From Cyanobacteria bacterium CG_2015-22_32_23 (GTDB lineage Bacteria > Cyanobacteriota > Cyanobacteriia > Cyanobacteriales > Cyanobacteriaceae): 57,762 nt of DNA. This document shows positions 14,031 through 24,475 of the stretch, in pieces. The number at the start of each line of letters is the position of its first letter. Within the stretch, counting starts at the first letter, position 1. The translations under genes were made by a program, and so were the position numbers. The stretch spans positions 1 to 57,762 of the forward strand of contig JAACUG010000067.1 in assembly GCA_009993045.1 (NCBI GenBank), written 5' to 3'. The notes under the pieces were generated by a model. That model made no database searches. It saw only the letters and a list, made by a program, of their open reading frames with translations, and had not been told where the DNA came from.

Positions 14031-14378
14031 ATGACTAGAGTAAAAAGAGGTAACGTCGCCCGTAAAAGACGTAATAAAATTTTAAAGTTAGCTAAAGGCT
14101 TTCGTGGTTCACATTCTAAGCTGTTTCGTACTGCTAATCAACAGGTAATGAAAGCTCTCCGTAATGCTTACCGCGATCGCCGTAAGAAAAAAAGAGATTT
14201 TCGTCGTTTATGGATTACCCGTATTAATGCAGCAGCAAGAATTCATGGTATTAGCTATAGTCAATTAATCAATAAATTAGATCATGCTAATATTACTTTA
14301 AATCGTAAAATTTTAGCTCAATTAGCAATTCAAGACGCTGAAGCGTTTCAAAAAATAGTTGAATTAGCGATTAAATAA
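14031..14378 (+). CDS. rplT: 50S ribosomal protein L20
   Basis: The 115-residue protein begins [20 protein letters not shown] and continues A-K-G-F-R-G-S-H...[21 protein letters not shown], diagnostic for L20. L20 organises 23S rRNA early in assembly and often represses its own operon. A hairpin terminator follows. Confidence 0.97.
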
Positions 14379-14391
14379 AGATCTTTCCTAA

Positions 14392-14418
14392 CCTCCCTTA
14401 ATAAGGGGGGATTTTTTT
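14392..14418. terminator. Hairpin terminator after rplT, overlapping the zorC-like 3' end
   Basis: CCTCCC pairs with GGGGGG around TTAATAA, followed by a run of eight T. For rplT this is a standard intrinsic terminator. The minus-strand zorC-like gene reads its last codons (I-P-P-Y) and stop out of the same hairpin, so the convergent gene ends share these bases. Confidence 0.75.
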
Positions 14419-15912
14419 TGCTTCTTCTTCTAACTGTTGAATATCTTTTTTCCAATCAATTAATTGTCTATTTCTATCATTAATTTGTTTTTGTTTTAGA
14501 GGTGGCATTCCTGAATTAAAATCATAAGAAAATCCTTCCTGATGCTCTACAATTTTAAAATATCTAATACCTTGATTCGGTAAAATATTTTTACTTCTTA
14601 AAAGTCTTTCACAATCATTTTGCCAACAATATCGATGATCATGTACGTTATCTTTTATAATAGATAAACTTCTTAATTGTTTAAGAGAAATATGATCACT
14701 ATTAAAGAATAAATTTTCTAATTCATTACTTTTAGGAAAAATTCTGGTTTCGCTTCCTTTTCCTCTGAAAAATTCCACAATTAACCATTTATCAAAATCG
14801 AAAATACAAACTTCTGTAGCTTCACTACCATCATAAATTAATGAAGTTATATCTTCTCTATTAATATTATTTCCTAAAATTTGTGTAGAAGAAGCAGGTA
14901 ATAAAATTCTAATTCTATCAAATCTATCAGTATAATTAGCCCAAAAAACTTTTCTATTTCTTAATTGTCTTTTTTCCCACTCTTCTAAATTAAAACGATT
15001 AATTATTAAATCAACTAATTTTTCAAAATCACGATAATTTACTGCACCAATCCATTGTTTTAAAGATTTTTTCGCCTCAATAGATAATTGATTCCACCGA
15101 GAATTATTCCCTGTTAAACCATAGTTATTTTTAAGCCAATTTACTAATTTGGGATATTTACCCCCAATATCAGCAGAAATATTATTTAATAGATTTTCTA
15201 CTGCTTTTAATTGAGGATAAGGAGATAAAATATTTAAGGTTTCGATTAAAAAATTAATTTGTTTTTCATTAATATTTTTAACACTTTTTAAGGCTAAAGG
15301 AAAAGATAACTGTATTTTTTCTACTAAAGTTAAATTATTATCAATATTAATTCGATAGGGTAAAGAATATTGAGTTAATAATTTATTAGGTTGTATAAGT
15401 TTATTTAAGCAAATTTCTGCTAATTCTTCATAAGAATTTTGAAATAGTAAATTAACAATTTTAATTAATGATTTATCATCTTCGTTTTGTGGTTCAAAAC
15501 TAGGACAAGTATCAGCTAAAGAAAATGGTAAAATTTTTTCCTTGGGGTTAAAAGTATATAAAACTAAACGCCAAAATAACCGTAATTTAAGGGCATCAGA
15601 TTTTTTAGTAAATTTCCAAATTTTTTCAGAAGTTGATAAACTTTTATCAGGATTTTCTACATCCCAACTATGTTTACTAAATAGACAATAAACCCATTCT
15701 AATAAACTAATATTTTCTAAGTTATTTTTTTCTATATCATTAATAATTTGCTCAATATTTCGAGATTTTATTTTTTTATCAAATTCAATACCATTAGGTA
15801 ATTGAGGAGGTGTTATTATTTCTCCTTTGATACCATAACCTAATTTCCATAACTCTTTAGGCTCAGGTTTTTCAAATTTTAAAGGTTGAAATTTAGCAGT
15901 AAAAAATGTCAT
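14398..15912 (-). CDS. zorC: EH-signature domain protein, ZorC-like
   Basis: The 504-residue soluble protein is the last gene of a five-gene minus-strand operon. Its second half looks like the EH_Signature domain of Zorya ZorC: K-V-F-W-A-N-Y (about 321-327), W-L-I-V-E-F-F with the conserved Glu at about 380, and H-D-H-R-Y-C-W with candidate signature His at 424/426. The N-terminal half is helical and not recognised. In type I Zorya, ZorC acts with ZorD on invading DNA after the ZorAB motor signals. It begins two bases after the ZorB-like gene upstream, so it is translationally coupled. Assignment rests on motif recall and context; a search with PF15611 would settle it. Confidence 0.68.
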   Translation of the reverse strand: MTFFTAKFQPLKFEKPEPKELWKLGYGIKGEIITPPQLPNGIEFDKKIKSRNIEQIINDIEKNNLENISLLEWVYCLFSKHSWDVENPDKSLSTSEKIWKFTKKSDALKLRLFWRLVLYTFNPKEKILPFSLADTCPSFEPQNEDDKSLIKIVNLLFQNSYEELAEICLNKLIQPNKLLTQYSLPYRINIDNNLTLVEKIQLSFPLALKSVKNINEKQINFLIETLNILSPYPQLKAVENLLNNISADIGGKYPKLVNWLKNNYGLTGNNSRWNQLSIEAKKSLKQWIGAVNYRDFEKLVDLIINRFNLEEWEKRQLRNRKVFWANYTDRFDRIRILLPASSTQILGNNINREDITSLIYDGSEATEVCIFDFDKWLIVEFFRGKGSETRIFPKSNELENLFFNSDHISLKQLRSLSIIKDNVHDHRYCWQNDCERLLRSKNILPNQGIRYFKIVEHQEGFSYDFNSGMPPLKQKQINDRNRQLIDWKKDIQQLEEEAKKIPPY

Positions 15913-15914
15913 AA

Positions 15915-16574
15915 TTAATTATTAGTTTTATTCTTAAATACTTGTCCTAAATCTTCTCTTTTAAATTGAAATCTAAACATCACTTTCCTATCTTTTGGAT
16001 CATCAAATTCTTTATTCGCATCAATATTTCCTCTTCCTGCCGCTAATAATTTATTTCTGAATTTATCTTGATTAGAAAAATTAATTGTATCAATATATTC
16101 TGTCACTGCTAATGCCCGTTGAAAACTTAATTCCATGTTATCTTTTTTTGAACCTTTTAAGCTAGTATGCCCTTCTATAATTATCATACTAATATTATTA
16201 GCGATTAATTCATCAGCAAAAACAGCTTCACTAAAAGCAGGAATAAACTCTCTTAAAAAAGTTTTACCTTTTGGCTTCAATTGAAAACTACCTTCATCAA
16301 AAAGAATTTCATTTGGTAAGGTTATATCTCCTGTTTTTTCATCTCTTGTTAAGTTACCTTTATCACCAATTTTATTTTCAATAGCATTAATAATTCTTTC
16401 AGGTAAAGTTTTAATTATTTCTTCATATCTTACTAATTGTGCGGAAACAGCGATAAATAACAGAGCAAAAAACATTAATAATCCAGACATTAAATCCCCT
16501 ACTGATAACCATACCCCAGAATCTTGCTCTTCTAGTAATTCTTCTTGGGTTTCGTATTCTAAAAATTCGCTCAT
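15915..16574 (-). CDS. zorB: MotB/OmpA-type motor protein, ZorB-like, short-linker copy
   Basis: A 219-residue inner-membrane protein. Residues 22-46 form one transmembrane helix that begins W-L-S-V-G-D-L-M-S-G, with Asp27 at the proton-carrying position of MotB-type stators. The C-terminal OmpA-like peptidoglycan-binding domain (about 90-215) has I-I-I-E-G-H-T-S-L-K-G-S and N-M-E-L-S-F-Q-R-A-L-A-V. Only about 10 residues separate the helix from the L-P-E-R-I start of the periplasmic part. The first 47 residues are identical to the paralogue upstream except at residue 10, while the rest has diverged strongly. Confidence 0.75.
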   Translation of the reverse strand: MSEFLEYETQEELLEEQDSGVWLSVGDLMSGLLMFFALLFIAVSAQLVRYEEIIKTLPERIINAIENKIGDKGNLTRDEKTGDITLPNEILFDEGSFQLKPKGKTFLREFIPAFSEAVFADELIANNISMIIIEGHTSLKGSKKDNMELSFQRALAVTEYIDTINFSNQDKFRNKLLAAGRGNIDANKEFDDPKDRKVMFRFQFKREDLGQVFKNKTNN

Positions 16575-16627
16575 TTGTGTATTAATTTTAATATAGTTTA
16601 ATTTTAAAAATTTGTATTTTTCAAGAA

Positions 16628-17371
16628 TTATAATAAATCCGTAAAATCTTCTTTTTTTAACTGAAATTTAAAAATAACTTTTCTATCTTCCCCTGTGTCT
16701 TTTTCTTGATTAGCTTCAATTTCTCCTCTTCCAGCAGGTAATATTTTTTGTTTAAATTTATCTTTATCATTAAAATTAAGACTGAAAATATAATCATTTA
16801 CCGCTAATGCTCTTTTTAAACTTAATTCCATATTTAATTCTTCTGAACCTTTTGAACTTGTATGCCCTTCTATAATAATTCTTATAACTTTTTCTTCGAT
16901 TAATTGATCTGAAAAAATGGCATCACTATATACAGGAATAAATGATTTTAAAAATTCTTTTCCTTCAGGTTTAAGTTGTGTACTACCTTCATCAAATAAA
17001 ATTTGTTCTCCTAATTTTACATCCCCTGTTTTTGGATCAACTTCCATTTGTCCATTACTGAGTTTATTCTGTAAAGCATTAACAATTTTTGAAGGCAACT
17101 CATCAATAACTTTTTTATATTTAATTAGTTGTTCTTCTAATTGCTTTGCTTTATCAATTGTTTTTTGTAACACTTCTTCTTTTTCTAGTAATTCTTGTTC
17201 TTTTTGATTAATTTGAGTAATTTTTTCTTGCAATTGAGCAGAAACAGCAATAAATAAGAGAGCAAAAAACATTAATAATCCAGACATTAAATCCCCTACT
17301 GATAACCATACCCCAGAATCTTGCTCTTCTAGTAATTCTTCTTCAGTTTCGTATTCTAAAAATTCGCTCAT
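16628..17371 (-). CDS. zorB: MotB/OmpA-type motor protein, ZorB-like, long-linker copy
   Basis: The 247-residue paralogue has the same N-terminus, the same transmembrane helix with Asp27, and an OmpA-like domain with I-I-I-E-G-H-T-S-S-K-G-S and N-M-E-L-S-L-K-R-A-L-A-V. It differs by about 34 extra residues after the helix, a Glu/Lys/Gln-rich predicted coiled coil (residues about 48-88). In known Zorya, ZorB pairs with ZorA to form a peptidoglycan-anchored, proton-driven stator. It lies between the ZorA-like gene and the second ZorB-like gene, with short gaps (74 and 53 bases). Confidence 0.75.
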   Translation of the reverse strand: MSEFLEYETEEELLEEQDSGVWLSVGDLMSGLLMFFALLFIAVSAQLQEKITQINQKEQELLEKEEVLQKTIDKAKQLEEQLIKYKKVIDELPSKIVNALQNKLSNGQMEVDPKTGDVKLGEQILFDEGSTQLKPEGKEFLKSFIPVYSDAIFSDQLIEEKVIRIIIEGHTSSKGSEELNMELSLKRALAVNDYIFSLNFNDKDKFKQKILPAGRGEIEANQEKDTGEDRKVIFKFQLKKEDFTDLL

Positions 17372-17445
17372 TTTTCCTCTTTTATTAATGATAAGTTAGT
17401 CAATATTGTGGTTGAGTTTGTTTATTTACCCAACCGATAATCTTA

Positions 17446-19956
17446 TTAATTATTATTAATATTAGTTTGCTTTAAATCATTAGCGGAAGCGACTAAATAT
17501 TCAGCAACATTCATTAAACCGTGAGAAGTATCATTTAATTTACTGCAAATATTAGCCATGGCTTTATCTGCATCATTAAAACTCTCATTATAACTATGAC
17601 TAGCATTAGTCAAATAATCATTAATTTGAGTATTAGTGTTAGATGATAGTTGATTAAATTCTTCAACAATTTTCGTGATAGTTTCTTCAAATTTATTAGT
17701 CATTAACTCTACATTATTATTAACTTTTTCATTCATTTTTTGATAACTACTTTCAACTTTTTGGGCTTCATTACCGATGGTATAAGCTAACTCTTGAAGT
17801 TGGGCAAATCTTTCACTAGAATTCATGCCGACAACGTTAACTAAGTTATTAACTATTTTCACCGTTTCTTGAATTTTTCCTAAACTTTGATTGACTTCAT
17901 TACTTAATTCTTTTCTCGTTTCGGCTTCTTCTTTAAAAGTAGTTTGTAAATTATTAACAACTTCCGCTAAACCTTCTTTTTGTTTGCTTAAAGTTTCCTC
18001 TAATAAGTTATTTTGTTGGGTAAAAAATTCCGTTAAAGATACTTGATATTCTAGTCTAAATCTCTCTAATTCTTCCTGCAAAGTAATGCGAGTTTGATAT
18101 AAAATAGTATCAATATTTGTGAGAGTTTCAAGGAGATTTTCTTTTGCTTGATTCATTAATTGAGATGCTTCTTCTCCGACATTTTTAATGGTTTCTGTTT
18201 GTTGAGAAAAAGCAATAGTTGTTTTGTCTAAAATGCTTTCAGTAGAATTTTTCACCCCTTCTAACATTTCTTTTTGTTGGGTTGCCTGAGTAATTAAAGC
18301 CTCCTGTAAATCTTCTCGAATCCCCCTAAAAGTATTAGCCGCAGAATTAGCACTAATTTCAAAGGCTTGTCTTTGTGCCTCCATGCCAATTATACTTTGC
18401 GCAACGGCGTTATTGATTTCTTCGGCTACCTGTTGTAAAACTCCTTTAGTATCACCACTAAATTGATTTAAAATTTCCTGTAAACTTTGAGCAAATTCCT
18501 GCAATTTAATGAGAGTATCTCTTTGAAATTCTTGGATTGTTTGTACTGCACCAGATAAACTTTCGGTAATACCGCCTAACTCGTCTTTCAATTCTCTGAC
18601 GGCAAGGGATGCTTCTTCTGTGAGTTTAGCACTTTGATCCAATCTTTGCACTACTGGCTCAATTAATTCGTTGCGTAACTGTTTAATTAATGATTGTATG
18701 GTAGATTCTTGCGCTATTTGTATCTGTTTCAAAGCCGTTAATTCTTCCTGAATAGGAGTTACTAAAGGTTGAATTGCATTGGCGATGGCAAAAGGTGTAA
18801 GATTTTCTAAATAACGATTTTGTGCTTGTAATTCCTCGACAATAGCAACTTTTTCCGTAGCGATGGCATCTCTAACTACTTGTTGAATATTCGCAGGGGT
18901 AAGATGTTGTAAATAATTATTTTGTGCTTGTAATTCTTCTACAATAGCAACTTTTTCCGTAGCGATGGCATCTCTAACTACTTGTTGAATATTCGCAGGG
19001 GTAAGATGTTGTAAATAATTATTTTGTTTCTCTAATTCTGCAACAATAAATGATGTTTCTAAAGTAATAACTTTTTGCATAGCCGAAGCAATATTTGCAG
19101 GAGTTAAGTTACTTAAATCATCAAGACTTTTAGTTTGTAACTGTAATTGTTTGATTAAAATACTCTCATCAGAAATAATAGCTTTTTGAATTTCATTAGC
19201 AATATTTTCTGGTGTTAAACTACTTAAAAAACTAAGATTATTAGCTAAATTTTCTAAACTTTTAGACGTATCTTCTTTAGAAGAATTATCTAATCTTGAT
19301 AGTAACTTTTGAGGTGATTCAAGAAAAGCAATTTCACTCAGTTTTTTTCTTAAATTATTACGAGTATTTTGTCTTAATTTTGCCCCTCTTGCTAAATACC
19401 ACATCATAAAAATAGCACTACTCATTCCAGCTAAAGAAGTAGAAAAAGCTGTTTTCATTCCCTCTAATAATTTAGTGGAAGAATCTAATAATGATTGTGT
19501 GTTATCAATTCCGCTTATACCTATTTCTTGCAAACCTAAAAAGATGCCTAAAAAAGTGCCTAAAATGCCTAAAGCTGTTAATAAAGTTGGTGCATAATAA
19601 ACTGGGCTACGAGGTACAGAATTGCTTAATAAGCTAGGATAAGATGAGAGAATATAATCATTATTTTCTAACTCAGGAGAAAAAGTTAAATCTTGATTTG
19701 TTTTACCTTTTAAATGTTTTAATACCCACTTTCTAACATCTTCTCTAATATCTTTTTTATCACAATCATCAAAATTAATAGTTGTTTTATTTTTACTTTG
19801 CGTTAAAAAATCTATAGCATCATTAATTAATTTGAAATTGTTATCACTTTTATAGTTGTTTATATCTTGATTTTCTTGCCAAATAAAATAAATAGCAAAT
19901 ACAAGAATTAAAGCCAATCCTAAAATATTGGAAATAGTTAAGAAAAAATTAAGCAT
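17446..19956 (-). CDS. zorA: MotA/TolQ/ExbB-type channel with long tail, ZorA-like
   Basis: An 836-residue membrane protein. TM1 lies at residues 5-27; the MotA/ExbB core has P-T-L-L-T-A-L-G-I-L-G-T-F-L-G-I-F-L-G-L (124-143) and L-L-E-G-M-K-T-A-F-S-T-S-L-A-G-M (163-178). From about residue 200 to the end is a helical, Gln/Glu-rich cytoplasmic tail. Such a tail is the mark of ZorA rather than flagellar MotA. Residues 245-400 hold five copies of a 34-37 residue repeat built on L-T-P-x-N-I, two nearly identical in DNA. It is the second gene of the operon, 18 bases after the 118-residue gene. Alternatives: an ExbB-like protein with another role; the ZorB and ZorC-like neighbours argue against this. 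Confidence 0.75.
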   Translation of the reverse strand: MLNFFLTISNILGLALILVFAIYFIWQENQDINNYKSDNNFKLINDAIDFLTQSKNKTTINFDDCDKKDIREDVRKWVLKHLKGKTNQDLTFSPELENNDYILSSYPSLLSNSVPRSPVYYAPTLLTALGILGTFLGIFLGLQEIGISGIDNTQSLLDSSTKLLEGMKTAFSTSLAGMSSAIFMMWYLARGAKLRQNTRNNLRKKLSEIAFLESPQKLLSRLDNSSKEDTSKSLENLANNLSFLSSLTPENIANEIQKAIISDESILIKQLQLQTKSLDDLSNLTPANIASAMQKVITLETSFIVAELEKQNNYLQHLTPANIQQVVRDAIATEKVAIVEELQAQNNYLQHLTPANIQQVVRDAIATEKVAIVEELQAQNRYLENLTPFAIANAIQPLVTPIQEELTALKQIQIAQESTIQSLIKQLRNELIEPVVQRLDQSAKLTEEASLAVRELKDELGGITESLSGAVQTIQEFQRDTLIKLQEFAQSLQEILNQFSGDTKGVLQQVAEEINNAVAQSIIGMEAQRQAFEISANSAANTFRGIREDLQEALITQATQQKEMLEGVKNSTESILDKTTIAFSQQTETIKNVGEEASQLMNQAKENLLETLTNIDTILYQTRITLQEELERFRLEYQVSLTEFFTQQNNLLEETLSKQKEGLAEVVNNLQTTFKEEAETRKELSNEVNQSLGKIQETVKIVNNLVNVVGMNSSERFAQLQELAYTIGNEAQKVESSYQKMNEKVNNNVELMTNKFEETITKIVEEFNQLSSNTNTQINDYLTNASHSYNESFNDADKAMANICSKLNDTSHGLMNVAEYLVASANDLKQTNINNN
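18817..19020. repeat. 102-bp tandem duplication inside zorA-like gene
   Basis: Two consecutive 102-base units (18817-18918 and 18919-19020) differ at two positions by my reading. They encode two copies of a 34-residue repeat (L-Q-H-L-T-P-A-N-I-Q-Q-V-V-R-D-A-I). More diverged copies flank them. The frame is preserved. Confidence 0.93.
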
Positions 19957-19974
19957 AATTTGATATTTTATTCC

Positions 19975-20331
19975 CTAAAGTTGATATTTTTTTGAAAATT
20001 TGTTAATTTCTTCTAAAGATAAAACTTCTTTTGCCACTCTTATAGGTAAATGAGCAGCATCTTGATAATTATCCACATTAGAAATTAATTGTAAACTATA
20101 AAGTACTTCTTCCGAAACTATTTCTTTATCTTCAATTAAATAGACAAAATTAGGGGCATAATTCCTTAAAAGTTTAACTTGTAATCTTACTTTTAAATCT
20201 CTCAAAGATTTTGCTAAAAAATGTTCATTATTAAATATTTCATCGGCTGCTAATTTCCATGAATGATTAACGGCATGAATTTCTTTAACTAAACTTTCAA
20301 AAGGTGGTGTTAATAAAGTCTGTAAGTTCAT
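19975..20331 (-). CDS. Unknown 118-aa protein leading the Zorya-like operon
   Basis: A small soluble protein with no transmembrane segment or signal peptide and no domain I can name. It contains mixed charged and hydrophobic segments (L-R-D-L-K-V-R-L-Q-V-K-L-L-R-N-Y and I-E-D-K-E-I-V-S-E-E-V-L-Y). It is the first gene of the operon and ends 18 bases before the ZorA-like gene, so it should be co-transcribed with it. It is not one of the classical Zorya components as I recall them. The 196-base gap to cobN must contain the divergent promoters of both. Confidence 0.6.
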   Translation of the reverse strand: MNLQTLLTPPFESLVKEIHAVNHSWKLAADEIFNNEHFLAKSLRDLKVRLQVKLLRNYAPNFVYLIEDKEIVSEEVLYSLQLISNVDNYQDAAHLPIRVAKEVLSLEEINKFSKKYQL

Positions 20332-20527: not shown

Positions 20528-23500
20528 ATGCACAGAATTCAAGCAAACCCTAGCGGATGGAATCCTGATACCGATGGGGTAATTATTATTCAACAAAATC
20601 CAGCGCCTATTATCTTCTTAACTAGCGCAGATACGGATATTCAAACTATCGCTGCTTCTATGGAATATTTACCCGCAAATTTTCCTGATATTCGAGTGGT
20701 TAATTTACTGCAATTACAACAAGAATTGACGATTGATACTTATGCACAAGAAGTTTTATCACAAGCAAAAGTGATTATTTTACGATTATTAGGAGGAAGA
20801 AGTTATTGGAGTTATGGCTTAGAAGTTTGTAAAGAAATAGTTAGCCAAAATAACGCTCATTTAATCATTTTACCCGGAGATGATCGTCCTGATTTCGAGT
20901 TAATTAATCATTCTAATATTTCGTTATCTAACGTTAATCAATTTTGGCAATATTTAACAGAAGGAGGAGTGGAAAATTTTGTTAATGCTTTTAAGTTTAT
21001 AAGTGACAGTTTTTTTGATACTAAATTTAACTTTAATTCACCTCAAGTAATTTCTCGTTTAGGAATTTATAACAAAAATTCGACATCTTTTACTAAAGAG
21101 AATAATTCAGAGGGAGGAATGCCAATAAATAAAGTAAAAGAAAATAAATTAACCTCAGAAAATAAGATAATTAATTCAAATATTGACACTGCTATTATAT
21201 TTTATCGATCTCATTATTTATCAAGTAATCTTAAACCCATTGACGCATTATGTCAAAGTTTAGAAGAAGAAAATTTAACCAATATTGCTATTTATGTATC
21301 CTCCCTCCAAGAGATAGATATTCAAGAAGAATTAATAAAATTATTACAACATCATCAAGTAAGATTAATTTTAAATACCACTAGCTTTTCTGTGGCTAAA
21401 ATCGGTGATGAAATTAACGCTAAAATTTGGCAAATATTAGATATTCCCGTTTTACAAGTTATCTTAAGTGGTAGCACTCAACAGTATTGGGAAGATAACT
21501 TTCAAGGCTTATCGCCGAGAGACGTTGCTATGAATGTTGCTTTACCTGAAGTGGATGGAAGAATTATCACTCGTGCGATTTCCTTTAAATCTGTCGCAAC
21601 TTGGCATTCTCAATTAGAAACAGATATTATCGAATATAAACCTTTAATAAATCGAGTAAAATATATTGCTAAACTAGCAAAAAAATGGGTTAATTTAAGT
21701 AAGATTAATAACTCAGAAAAAAAAGTTGCTTTAATTTTAGCTAACTATCCCAATAAAGACGGAAGAATTGCTAATGGTGTTGGTTTAGATACTCCAGCTA
21801 GTTGCATTAATATTTTAAACTCTTTACTTAATAATGGTTATAAAATTAATGATATTCCAGCTAACGGTGATGACTTGATTTTTAAATTAATTGAAGGGGT
21901 AACTAATGATTTAGAAATGCAATCTAACCGAAAAATTAATCAATATTTATCTTTAGAAAACTATCAAAATTATTTTCAAACTTTACCCTTAGAAGTTCAA
22001 CAACAAATTATTAATAGATGGGGTGATTTTGATACCCCCCAGCCCTGCTTACTAAGGGGGGAGTCGAAGACGGGGGGATTGCCATTACTAAGAGAGGAGT
22101 CAAAGATAGGGGAAACATTTATCCCCATTTCTGGTTTACAATTAGGTAATATTTTTATTGGCATTCAACCCTCAAGAGGTTATGATTTAGATCCTAGTTT
22201 AAATTATCATGCACCAGATTTAGAGCCCACTCATCATTATTTAGCTTTTTATTATTGGGTGCGAGAAATTTTCAAAGCTGATGCTATTATTCATGTAGGA
22301 AAACATGGTAATTTAGAATGGTTGCCGGGTAAAAGTTTAGTTTTATCAGAGAATTGTTACCCTGAAATAACTTTAGATAATTTACCTAATTTTTATCCTT
22401 TTATTGTAAATGATCCGGGTGAAGGTTCACAAGCAAAACGTAGAGCAAATGCAGTCATTATTGATCATTTAACCCCACCTTTAACCCGTGCAGAATTATA
22501 TAATGAATTATTAGAATTAGAGGCTTTAATTGATGAATATTATCAAGCACAAAGTCTTAATCCTAGTCGTTTAAATATTATTGGCGATCGCATAGTAAAA
22601 TTAATAAAAGAAACTAACTTAAATGAAGATTTAGCCATTAAAAAGCTAAATAAAGATAGTTTTTCAGAATTTTTAACTACTACTGATAGTTATTTATGTG
22701 AATTAAAAGACGCTCAAATTAGGGATGGGTTGCATATTTTTGGAGAATGCCCCGAAGGAAGACAATTAAGAGATTTAATTATAGCAATTGCACGTTTTAG
22801 TAGTTATAATAACTTAGGTTTAATTGAAGCTATTAAACAAGATTTAGAAAATAATTTAACTGAATTAATAATAAATAATCAAGAAGATAAGCCATTATCT
22901 AATATTAAAGATAAACTAGAAGATAAAGAAAGCAAAGAATATATAGAAAATCTTGCTTGTCAATTAATTGATAATCTTATTCAAGGAAGAAATAATACTA
23001 ATTTATTTTTACAAAATATAGAATCAATTATTAATAATGATAAAGGTAAATCTGAGATAGCTGAATTATTAAACAAAAAAAATTATCAAAAAATTAGCTT
23101 AGGAAAACATACCGAAAAATCTCTTAATTGGATAGCGAATAATTTACTACCAAACTTGAGAAAAACTGATCAAGAAATCACCAATTTAATGAGAGGATTA
23201 GAAGGCAAATTTATCCCCAGTGGTTCATCAGGTGCACCTAGTCGAGGTAGGTCTGATGTATTACCCACGGGACGCAATTTTTATTCGGTGGATATAAGAG
23301 CAATTCCCAGTGAAACAGCTTGGGATGTAGGTAGAAAAGCAGCAGATGCAGTAATTGAACGATATACCCAAGAAAACGGCGAATATCCTCGCACATTAGC
23401 GATTTCCGTTTGGGGTACTTCCACTATGCGCACAGGAGGAGATGACATTGCTCAAATTATGGCATTAATGGGCATAAAACCTGTCTGGGATGGCGTTACT

Positions 23501-24475
23501 CGTAGGGTTGTGGATTATGAAATTATCCCTATTTCTGTATTAGGGCGACCTCGTATAGATGTAACTGTTAGAGTTTCGGGCTTTTTTCGTGACGGATTTC
23601 CCAATATACTGGAATTATTGCATAAAGCGATTGTAAATTTGTCAACCCTTAAAGAAGAAAAAGAAAATAATCCCCTTGCTTTACAAGTAGAAAAAGAGAC
23701 CAAATATTGGTTAAATCAAGGATTAGAAAATAATCAAGCAAAAGATAGAGCAAGTTATCGTTTATTTGGTTCAAAACCGGGTGCTTATGGTGCTGGTTTA
23801 CAAGGTTTAATGGAGTCACAAAATTGGGAAACAGATGCTGATTTAGCTAGGGCTTATTTAAACTGGAGTAGTTATGCTTATCAAGGCAGTAAAGGAGTTT
23901 CTATGCCAGAAGTTTTTGAGCAAAGATTGAAGGAATTGCAAATAGTTTTACACAACCAAGATAACCGTGAACATGATTTATTAGATTCCGATGATTATTA
24001 CCAATTTCAAGGAGGATTAACCGCAGCAGTCAGACATTTAAAAGGAGAAAATCCTGTTACTTATTTTGGGGATAATTCCCAACCTAATAACCCAAAAGTT
24101 AGGGCATTAAAAGAGGAAATTGCGAGGGTTTATCGCAGTCGAGTTATTAACCCTAAATGGATAGCAGGAGTTATGCGTCATGGTTATAAAGGCGCTTTTG
24201 AAATGAGTGCTACTGTGGACTATTTATTTGCCTATTCAGCTACTACGAAAAGTGTACCTAATTTTATGTTTGAAGGAGTAGCTAAAAGTTATTTATTCGA
24301 TGAAAAAATACAGCAATTTATTCAAGAAAAAAACCCTTGGGCATTAAGAGATATAGCCGAAAGATTAATCGAAGCATCTCAACGAAATTTATGGGAAAAT
24401 GTCTCTCAAGAAATGTTAGATAAACTCAGAAATATCGCCCATGAATCAGAGGCAATTATTGAAGGTAAAATATGA
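20528..24475 (+). CDS. cobN: Cobaltochelatase subunit CobN
   Basis: A 1315-residue large chelatase subunit that inserts cobalt into the corrin ring in the aerobic cobalamin route. It resembles ChlH, but the N-terminus (G-V-I-I-I-Q-Q-N-P-A-P-I-I-F-L-T-S-A-D-T) and R-L-L-G-G-R-S-Y-W-S-Y-G fit the CobN branch. H-V-G-K-H-G-N-L-E-W-L-P-G-K and the C-terminal G-V-M-R-H-G-Y-K-G-A-F-E-M are hallmark blocks. About residues 503-530 are an in-frame repeat insertion unlike the family. A low-complexity, Asn/Lys-rich region spans about 770-870. It is divergent from the Zorya-like operon. Confidence 0.92.
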   Translation: MHRIQANPSGWNPDTDGVIIIQQNPAPIIFLTSADTDIQTIAASMEYLPANFPDIRVVNLLQLQQELTIDTYAQEVLSQAKVIILRLLGGRSYWSYGLEVCKEIVSQNNAHLIILPGDDRPDFELINHSNISLSNVNQFWQYLTEGGVENFVNAFKFISDSFFDTKFNFNSPQVISRLGIYNKNSTSFTKENNSEGGMPINKVKENKLTSENKIINSNIDTAIIFYRSHYLSSNLKPIDALCQSLEEENLTNIAIYVSSLQEIDIQEELIKLLQHHQVRLILNTTSFSVAKIGDEINAKIWQILDIPVLQVILSGSTQQYWEDNFQGLSPRDVAMNVALPEVDGRIITRAISFKSVATWHSQLETDIIEYKPLINRVKYIAKLAKKWVNLSKINNSEKKVALILANYPNKDGRIANGVGLDTPASCINILNSLLNNGYKINDIPANGDDLIFKLIEGVTNDLEMQSNRKINQYLSLENYQNYFQTLPLEVQQQIINRWGDFDTPQPCLLRGESKTGGLPLLREESKIGETFIPISGLQLGNIFIGIQPSRGYDLDPSLNYHAPDLEPTHHYLAFYYWVREIFKADAIIHVGKHGNLEWLPGKSLVLSENCYPEITLDNLPNFYPFIVNDPGEGSQAKRRANAVIIDHLTPPLTRAELYNELLELEALIDEYYQAQSLNPSRLNIIGDRIVKLIKETNLNEDLAIKKLNKDSFSEFLTTTDSYLCELKDAQIRDGLHIFGECPEGRQLRDLIIAIARFSSYNNLGLIEAIKQDLENNLTELIINNQEDKPLSNIKDKLEDKESKEYIENLACQLIDNLIQGRNNTNLFLQNIESIINNDKGKSEIAELLNKKNYQKISLGKHTEKSLNWIANNLLPNLRKTDQEITNLMRGLEGKFIPSGSSGAPSRGRSDVLPTGRNFYSVDIRAIPSETAWDVGRKAADAVIERYTQENGEYPRTLAISVWGTSTMRTGGDDIAQIMALMGIKPVWDGVTRRVVDYEIIPISVLGRPRIDVTVRVSGFFRDGFPNILELLHKAIVNLSTLKEEKENNPLALQVEKETKYWLNQGLENNQAKDRASYRLFGSKPGAYGAGLQGLMESQNWETDADLARAYLNWSSYAYQGSKGVSMPEVFEQRLKELQIVLHNQDNREHDLLDSDDYYQFQGGLTAAVRHLKGENPVTYFGDNSQPNNPKVRALKEEIARVYRSRVINPKWIAGVMRHGYKGAFEMSATVDYLFAYSATTKSVPNFMFEGVAKSYLFDEKIQQFIQEKNPWALRDIAERLIEASQRNLWENVSQEMLDKLRNIAHESEAIIEGKI
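22035..22120. repeat. In-frame C/G-rich repeat insertion in cobN
   Basis: CCCCCC at 22035 faces GGGGGG at about 22056 around a short loop. Two degenerate 36-base units start at 22049 and 22085, each beginning TTACTAAG. They are translated as L-L-R-G-E-S-K-T-G-G-L-P and L-L-R-E-E-S-K-I-G-E-T-F. GC content is far above the surrounding gene, which points to an inserted repeat element. Confidence 0.8.

Follow-up and report, generated by a model that had tools for sequence, protein, structure and literature searches.

A very probable ZorD-less subtype of Zorya with the small protein orf118 in Cyanobacteriota and Vibrionaceae

In the current view of Zorya, a motor recruits an effector that cuts DNA, and in the type I system studied so far removal of ZorD abolishes protection. 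What, then, is a locus that carries the motor genes and zorC together with neither ZorD nor ZorE? Such a locus lies on the minus strand at 14398-20331 of a 57,762-nt contig (JAACUG010000067.1) of Cyanobacteria bacterium CG_2015-22_32_23, the whole of which is referred to as the window, and consists of orf118, zorA, two zorB genes (zorB-long and zorB-short) and zorC. The initial annotation had read it as a Zorya-like module without a ZorD/ZorE effector and had offered three explanations, namely an effector acting in trans, the EH-signature protein (ZorC) as the sole effector, or a separate Zorya subtype. The module reading was confirmed by PADLOC matches of ZorA, ZorB and ZorC and by the absence of an effector gene, and the cluster almost certainly belongs to the Zorya family. 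The separate subtype is the best supported of the three explanations, because the ZorD-less order orf118-A-B-C is conserved in Cyanobacteriota and Vibrionaceae; we consider it very probable that the cluster represents a distinct ZorD-less subtype, orf118-ZorA-ZorB(-ZorB')-ZorC. What sequence or fold shows directly is the presence of ZorC and of the ZorA/ZorB motor, the absence of a linked ZorD or ZorE, and the repeated linkage of orf118. By analogy with studied Zorya, the cluster would act in anti-phage defence, probably by a route not yet described.

Motor proteins, ZorC and the search for an effector

The best match of the channel protein was the PADLOC model PDLC00597, aligned over nearly the full length (920 bits, E = 3e-277), and its residues 109-238 aligned with the solved ZorA of the Shewanella Zorya (8vvn_C, E = 6e-8), whereas the generic MotA_ExbB model scored 19.1 bits, under the cut-off of 22.9. 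These results indicate a Zorya-type channel, dispelling the concern raised in the initial annotation that it might group with unrelated ExbB/TolQ systems. ZorA is a MotA/ExbB-type pentamer subunit with a membrane part at approximately residues 1-190 and a long helical cytoplasmic tail, which is lengthened by a tandem repeat with a 34-codon unit. Among close relatives ZorA measures 836 aa in the window, 797 aa in genome G001 and 719 aa in genome G008, and the repeat is a ready source of tail-length variation. Both ZorBs matched PDLC00609 over nearly their full length (E = 9e-73 and 9e-71 for the long and short copies, respectively), with the OmpA domain above cut-off, and ZorB was aligned with the solved structures 8vvi, 8qyd and 8vvn. 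ZorB-long comprises a MotB-type stator helix with D27, an extra helical linker and an OmpA-like peptidoglycan-binding domain. The motor aspartate D27 was invariant in all 47 ZorBs compared, as were a Glu-Gly pair, one Leu and one Arg in the OmpA-like domain.

ZorC matched PDLC00618 nearly full-length (689 bits, E = 9e-208; PDLC00616, 24 bits). It is a helical-repeat protein with a C-terminal EH_Signature domain (PF15611) at residues 255-436, whose score of 76.6 bits (cut-off, 27.5) bears out the earlier assignment of this domain to the 504-residue protein, and its residues E380, D425 and H426 were invariant (alignment A5). Although a sequence search of ZorC against the PDB gave no match, the best fold match of its predicted model (predicted local distance difference test, pLDDT, 84.9) was the solved ZorC 8r68 (Z = 10.9 over 339 residues; next chain, 6.9), a match that came from the second structural aligner only, 8r68 not being among the Foldseek matches listed. 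The root-mean-square deviation of this alignment was high (8.7 Å), so the domain orientation either differs from that of 8r68 or is mis-modelled.

Regarding the effector, no linked ZorD (an SNF2 helicase with a nuclease domain) was present in the window cluster and none recurred after zorC in 77 loci. The cluster contained no helicase or nuclease open reading frame (ORF) at all, including the ZorE HNH nuclease, and none of the five window proteins matched ZorF (DUF3348) or ZorG (DUF2894) in Pfam at E <= 1. In these 77 loci of the cyanobacterial set, the gene after zorC lay on the opposite strand in 44 cases, was co-directed at a distance of more than 150 bp in 16, and was nearer than that in 16. 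The 16 nearby genes looked like housekeeping genes or were doubtful ORFs, and no helicase or nuclease recurred among them; the exception is locus L134, where the gene is a second ZorA. When flanks were searched with a housekeeping-type SNF2 query, strong ORFs were found at L080 and L099 only, and weak ones at L105 and L049.

The main rival explanation holds that the motor, ZorC and orf118 recruit a separately encoded host helicase or nuclease. It would suit the presence in the same genome of several SNF2-type helicases, the best of which scored 480 bits against ZorD models over the helicase part only, and the type II Zorya with ZorE that lies directly upstream of the module in most Vibrionaceae loci. 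However, this ZorD-like SNF2 protein showed no match to the N-terminal part of ZorD and occurred in all of 60 relatives regardless of ZorC, indicating a housekeeping protein and not a dedicated ZorD. ZorD in trans, which the initial annotation had proposed looking for elsewhere in the genome, was accordingly rejected. A DpdE-like helicase, encoded once in the genome and again approximately 420 bp after zorC on a Nostoc HK-01 plasmid, was also rejected as a partner, since it occurred in 4 of 36 ZorC-positive and 11 of 113 ZorC-negative genomes, showing no association. The same applied to ZorE in trans: no full-length copy was found in the genome, whose matches were limited to generic short HNH fragments (a 94-aa frame covering profile positions 188-253 of 375). 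In addition, the vibrio loci L134, L161 and L163 had no upstream ZorE within the stretch read. An effector acting in trans is thus not supported and appears unlikely.

orf118 and the distribution of the module

The most telling component of the module is orf118, a point that the initial annotation had not made; nor had it mentioned the nearly identical membrane segments of the two ZorBs. This 118-residue protein proved, as first surmised, to belong to no recognised family: scans of PADLOC, NCBIfam and PHROGs gave none, those of Pfam none above cut-off, a sequence search against the PDB returned no solved structure, and no copy was found in viral contigs or phages. Positions N22, W25, K26, K47, Q51, P60, H94 and P96 were invariant among 28 sequences from two phyla (alignment A3). 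The AlphaFold2 model (pLDDT 92.7; predicted template modelling score, pTM, 0.84) predicts a compact alpha-alpha-beta-beta-beta-alpha-alpha fold, in which two helices form a hairpin, three strands a sheet, and two further helices are short. Neither the PDB nor the viral models yielded a match below E = 0.05, and only generic helical hairpins were retrieved (Z <= 5.4), a null result that is no proof of a new fold. Among 94 orf118 ORFs, not all independent because some genomes are in more than one set, 81 were directly 5' of zorA (median gap 18 bp), 8 directly 3' of zorC, and the remaining 5 where a contig ends or within fragmented loci. The position 3' of zorC was seen at L093, L106, L108, L124, L132, L067 and L071, mostly in relatives of Anabaena/Dolichospermum.

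One supported ZorB clade (L053, L054, L055, L063 and L064; support 99/92) has kept A-B-C, with orf118 nowhere in the genomes, perhaps representing a minimal form of the module. This clade speaks for orf118 as a tuning or assisting factor and against orf118 as the sole effector, and it favours the option of the initial annotation in which ZorC is the sole effector; a regulator or adaptor is a more likely role for orf118 than an indispensable enzyme. Alternatively, orf118 might itself replace ZorD as the effector, for example as a small nuclease or a DNA-end binder with an H-x-P motif. The invariant polar residues K47, Q51 and H94, the linkage to zorA and the fact that orf118 stands in for ZorD among the genes of the module are consistent with such a role, whereas no known nuclease fold was found, the above clade does without the protein, and its small size and location 5' of zorA suit a regulator. 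We regard an effector role for orf118 as rather unlikely.

The arrangement is widespread and patchy. Of 149 genomes from the same order, 36 have ZorC, the flanks of which repeatedly showed orf118-zorA-zorB-zorC, and two of four congeners carried no module. A scan of the GTDB representatives with an orf118 profile yielded 57 loci, almost all of them from cyanobacteria and, again with few exceptions, adjacent to zorA; one was in Vibrio superstes. Sampled Cyanobacteriota had orf118 in 24 of 386 genomes and Vibrionaceae in 19 of 296; in the latter, zorA was next to it in 19/19 and zorB and zorC followed wherever the contig extends far enough. A Pseudomonadota-wide sample gave 5 matches in 398 genomes, four of which were already in the Vibrionaceae set and one of which was weak (G807, E = 7.5e-4). 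The check proposed in the initial annotation, a search for the gene order in other cyanobacteria, thus found orf118-A-B-C there and in Vibrionaceae as well. The missing ZorD is, judging from gene content, a trait of the lineage and not a local loss. Comparing the window with its nearest relative, the ratios of nonsynonymous to synonymous substitution (dN/dS) were 0.16, 0.28, 0.39 and 0.23 for orf118, ZorA, ZorB and ZorC, respectively (0.04 for rplT as a yardstick), indicating purifying selection on all four genes tested. Since this selection coincides with a gene order that recurs in two phyla, the cluster is, on these sequence comparisons, not a chance arrangement.

A module decayed from type I Zorya, in which ZorD was lost recently and the remainder is a relic, would be in keeping with the truncated, split or orphaned zorC genes observed at L056, L060, L061, L062 and L069 (at L061 and L062 zorC is an orphan with no zorA, zorB or orf118 nearby). 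It is very improbable in view of the absence of ZorD from the whole lineage in two phyla, the intact window genes under purifying selection, and the tight linkage in which orf118 has been kept.

The distribution looks mobile as well as patchy. One copy of the module is on a mobilizable Nostoc plasmid, and in the congeners G001 and G003 the module is sited elsewhere relative to rplT; an empty-site comparison gave no clean insertion boundary, the genes after rplT differing among congeners. In Vibrionaceae the modules sit among type I restriction-modification (R-M), Druantia and Zorya II genes, in two layouts. In layout (i), ZorB2 (PDLC00641, E = 1e-104) and ZorE (PDLC00645, E = 6e-161) precede orf118-ZorA-ZorB-ZorC, with type I R-M genes following, and ZorC is 584-798 aa in most loci; such arrays with two Zorya systems were observed at L173:181-7110 (ZorE-to-orf118 gap 22 bp), L160, L162 and L166-L177. 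In layout (ii), orf118-ZorA-ZorB-ZorC is followed by a second ZorA-ZorB, a 306-331-aa protein without any family and another ZorB, as at L134:15021-19621 (Vibrio superstes), L159, L161 and L163-L165; this is possibly a further Zorya variant. The two layouts indicate that the module moves as one block, to which a second Zorya motor can be joined. Type I R-M genes also adjoin a predicted Zorya in the Vibrio cholerae island VPI-2 (PMC12409362). At L160:7658-8872, a CARF/Csx1-like 404-aa protein (PDLC01904) is encoded directly 3' of zorC, and beyond it lies a type I restriction subunit gene that is split.

These data also bear on a non-defence reading, in which the cluster is an envelope motor of the Tol/Exb kind that serves a housekeeping function and only looks like Zorya. 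The position of the window module between housekeeping genes would be expected of such a motor, but the proteins are closer to Zorya models than to Tol/Exb models, the fold of ZorC matches 8r68, presence is patchy with a plasmid copy, and the Vibrionaceae copies lie among type I R-M, Druantia and Zorya II genes, so that a housekeeping role is improbable.

A proposed mechanism, the paired ZorBs and the locus

In the studied Zorya systems, which are only distantly related to the window module, ZorA and ZorB make up an ion-driven motor of 5:2 stoichiometry, both the peptidoglycan-binding domain of ZorB and the tail of ZorA are indispensable, and recruitment of the nuclease module is the task proposed for the motor (PMC11890865). 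On this model, two ZorBs of the ZorD-less subtype would be ringed by five ZorAs in the inner membrane. An injecting phage would damage or compress the envelope, upon which the OmpA-like domains of ZorB would grip the peptidoglycan; ions passing the ZorB aspartate would then turn the motor and move the long ZorA tail, which would bring ZorC to the DNA as it enters. There ZorC would block or destroy that DNA with no ZorD helicase-nuclease, in most cases together with orf118 attached either to ZorC itself or to the tail. As ZorABC without ZorD is non-protective in the studied type I, a ZorD-less lineage must finish the job otherwise, and the best-supported idea is that the ZorC of this clade, usually with orf118, does so.

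Three points weigh against this reading. Type I ZorABC without ZorD gives no protection (PMC11890865), and ZorC alone is not known to suffice, given this need for ZorD. Furthermore, orf118 is missing from whole genomes of a supported clade with A-B-C, hence it is not strictly required; and the window's own module lies between housekeeping genes and not in a defence island. Taking the identity of the module and its mechanism together, we put the probability of this reading at roughly 0.55; the ZorC/orf118 effector mechanism by itself is tentative, at somewhat less than even odds.

The two ZorBs of the window are related in an uneven manner. In the ZorB tree, the short copy groups with the ZorB of the nearest relatives, which have only one, indicating orthology, and the long copy is their sister; Oscillatoria, Laspinema and allies have another pair of one long and one short ZorB, separate from that of the window. 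The window pair is identical at 134 of the first 141 bp and approximately 65-75% identical over the remainder, and in the first 40 codons, which include the membrane helix, DNA identity is 97-98% (third positions, 95%). Around D27 the two copies are 96% alike, against 91-92% for either copy to the congener. Similarly, third positions of the pair at L097 are 91% alike within the genome, against 70-73% to the orthologues at L081. The simplest reading is that ZorB membrane segments have been homogenised through gene conversion in some lineages, under the constraint that one ZorA ring has to accommodate both helices, with the wall-binding parts diverging. Conversion in every ZorB pair was rejected, being seen in the window and L097 and absent in L081 and L084. 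Because the membrane helices match while the linkers and wall-binding domains differ, the window ZorBs may form a heterodimer within a single ZorA5 ring, for which we consider the chances evenly balanced; the paired ZorBs are a natural test case for asymmetric stators. It is possible, although doubtful, that orf118 founds a new family of ZorD-replacing effectors or adaptors with an undescribed fold, and that some of these systems use an asymmetric two-ZorB motor whose helices are kept alike by gene conversion.

Features of the locus are summarized in the table. All five ORFs are intact and co-directed as initially annotated, and the boundaries given there, cobN and rplT with no helicase or nuclease gene between them, agree with the Pfam matches. 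The gaps from orf118 through zorA, zorB-long and zorB-short to zorC are only 18, 74, 53 and 2 bp, so that the orf118-ABBC cluster is likely to be transcribed as a single operon. A promoter scan gave no more sites than in shuffled sequence.

Table. Positions of the module genes and adjoining features in the window
Feature	Position	Strand	Remarks
orf118	19975..20331	-	118 aa; first gene of the module
ZorA	17446..19956	-	836 aa; PADLOC PDLC00597 ZorA1, E = 3e-277; aligned with 8vvn_C
Tandem repeat in ZorA tail	18793..19048	-	in frame; 102-bp unit, 2.5 copies, 91% matches
ZorB-long	16628..17371	-	247 aa; PDLC00609, E = 9e-73; PF00691, E = 2.7e-13
ZorB-short	15915..16574	-	219 aa; PDLC00609, E = 9e-71; placed by tree
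ZorC	14398..15912	-	504 aa; PDLC00618, E = 9e-208; PF15611, 76.6 bits
cobN	20528..24475		divergent flank; PF02514, E = 0
rplT (ribosomal protein L20)	14031..14378		convergent flank, end 19 bp from zorC stop; PF00453, E = 9e-47
Terminator-like hairpin	14392..14410	+	for rplT; overlaps zorC stop at the convergent gene ends

Comparison with known Zorya systems

Recognition of the ZorA, ZorB and ZorC of this clade is already covered by PADLOC under type I labels. We found no account of a ZorD-less Zorya type or of orf118 in the literature searched, which left out most papers behind subscriptions as well as the principal paper on Zorya structure. Classification tools have no orf118 model, and such systems therefore risk being taken for broken type I; a ZorD-less form that has been kept across two phyla asks what ZorC itself does and what orf118 adds.

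The module resembles type I (ZorABCD; E. coli, Shewanella, Serratia) in the ZorA/ZorB motor, the long ZorA tail, and a ZorC with EH_Signature and the 8r68 fold. It differs from type I in lacking ZorD, in the additional orf118 and, in some cases, two ZorBs, and its proteins fall into PADLOC clades of their own, as illustrated by the above ZorC scores for PDLC00618 and PDLC00616. With type II (ZorABE) it shares ZorA and ZorB, for which the second-best PADLOC models are those of type II (ZorA2, 60 bits; ZorB2, 78-87 bits), and in many vibrios a type II system lies directly upstream; on the other hand, the module has ZorC and orf118 in place of ZorE. Type III (ZorABFG) likewise combines a ZorA/ZorB core with accessory proteins instead of a linked nuclease. 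Those accessories are DUF3348 and DUF2894 proteins (PMC8565338), neither of which orf118 matches, and the window module has ZorC instead. Finally, the stators ExbBD, TolQR and MotAB would by analogy share the 5:2 ion-driven motor design, and the invariant ZorB aspartate is a further common feature, but the MotA_ExbB score of ZorA is below cut-off and those systems have no counterpart of ZorC or orf118.
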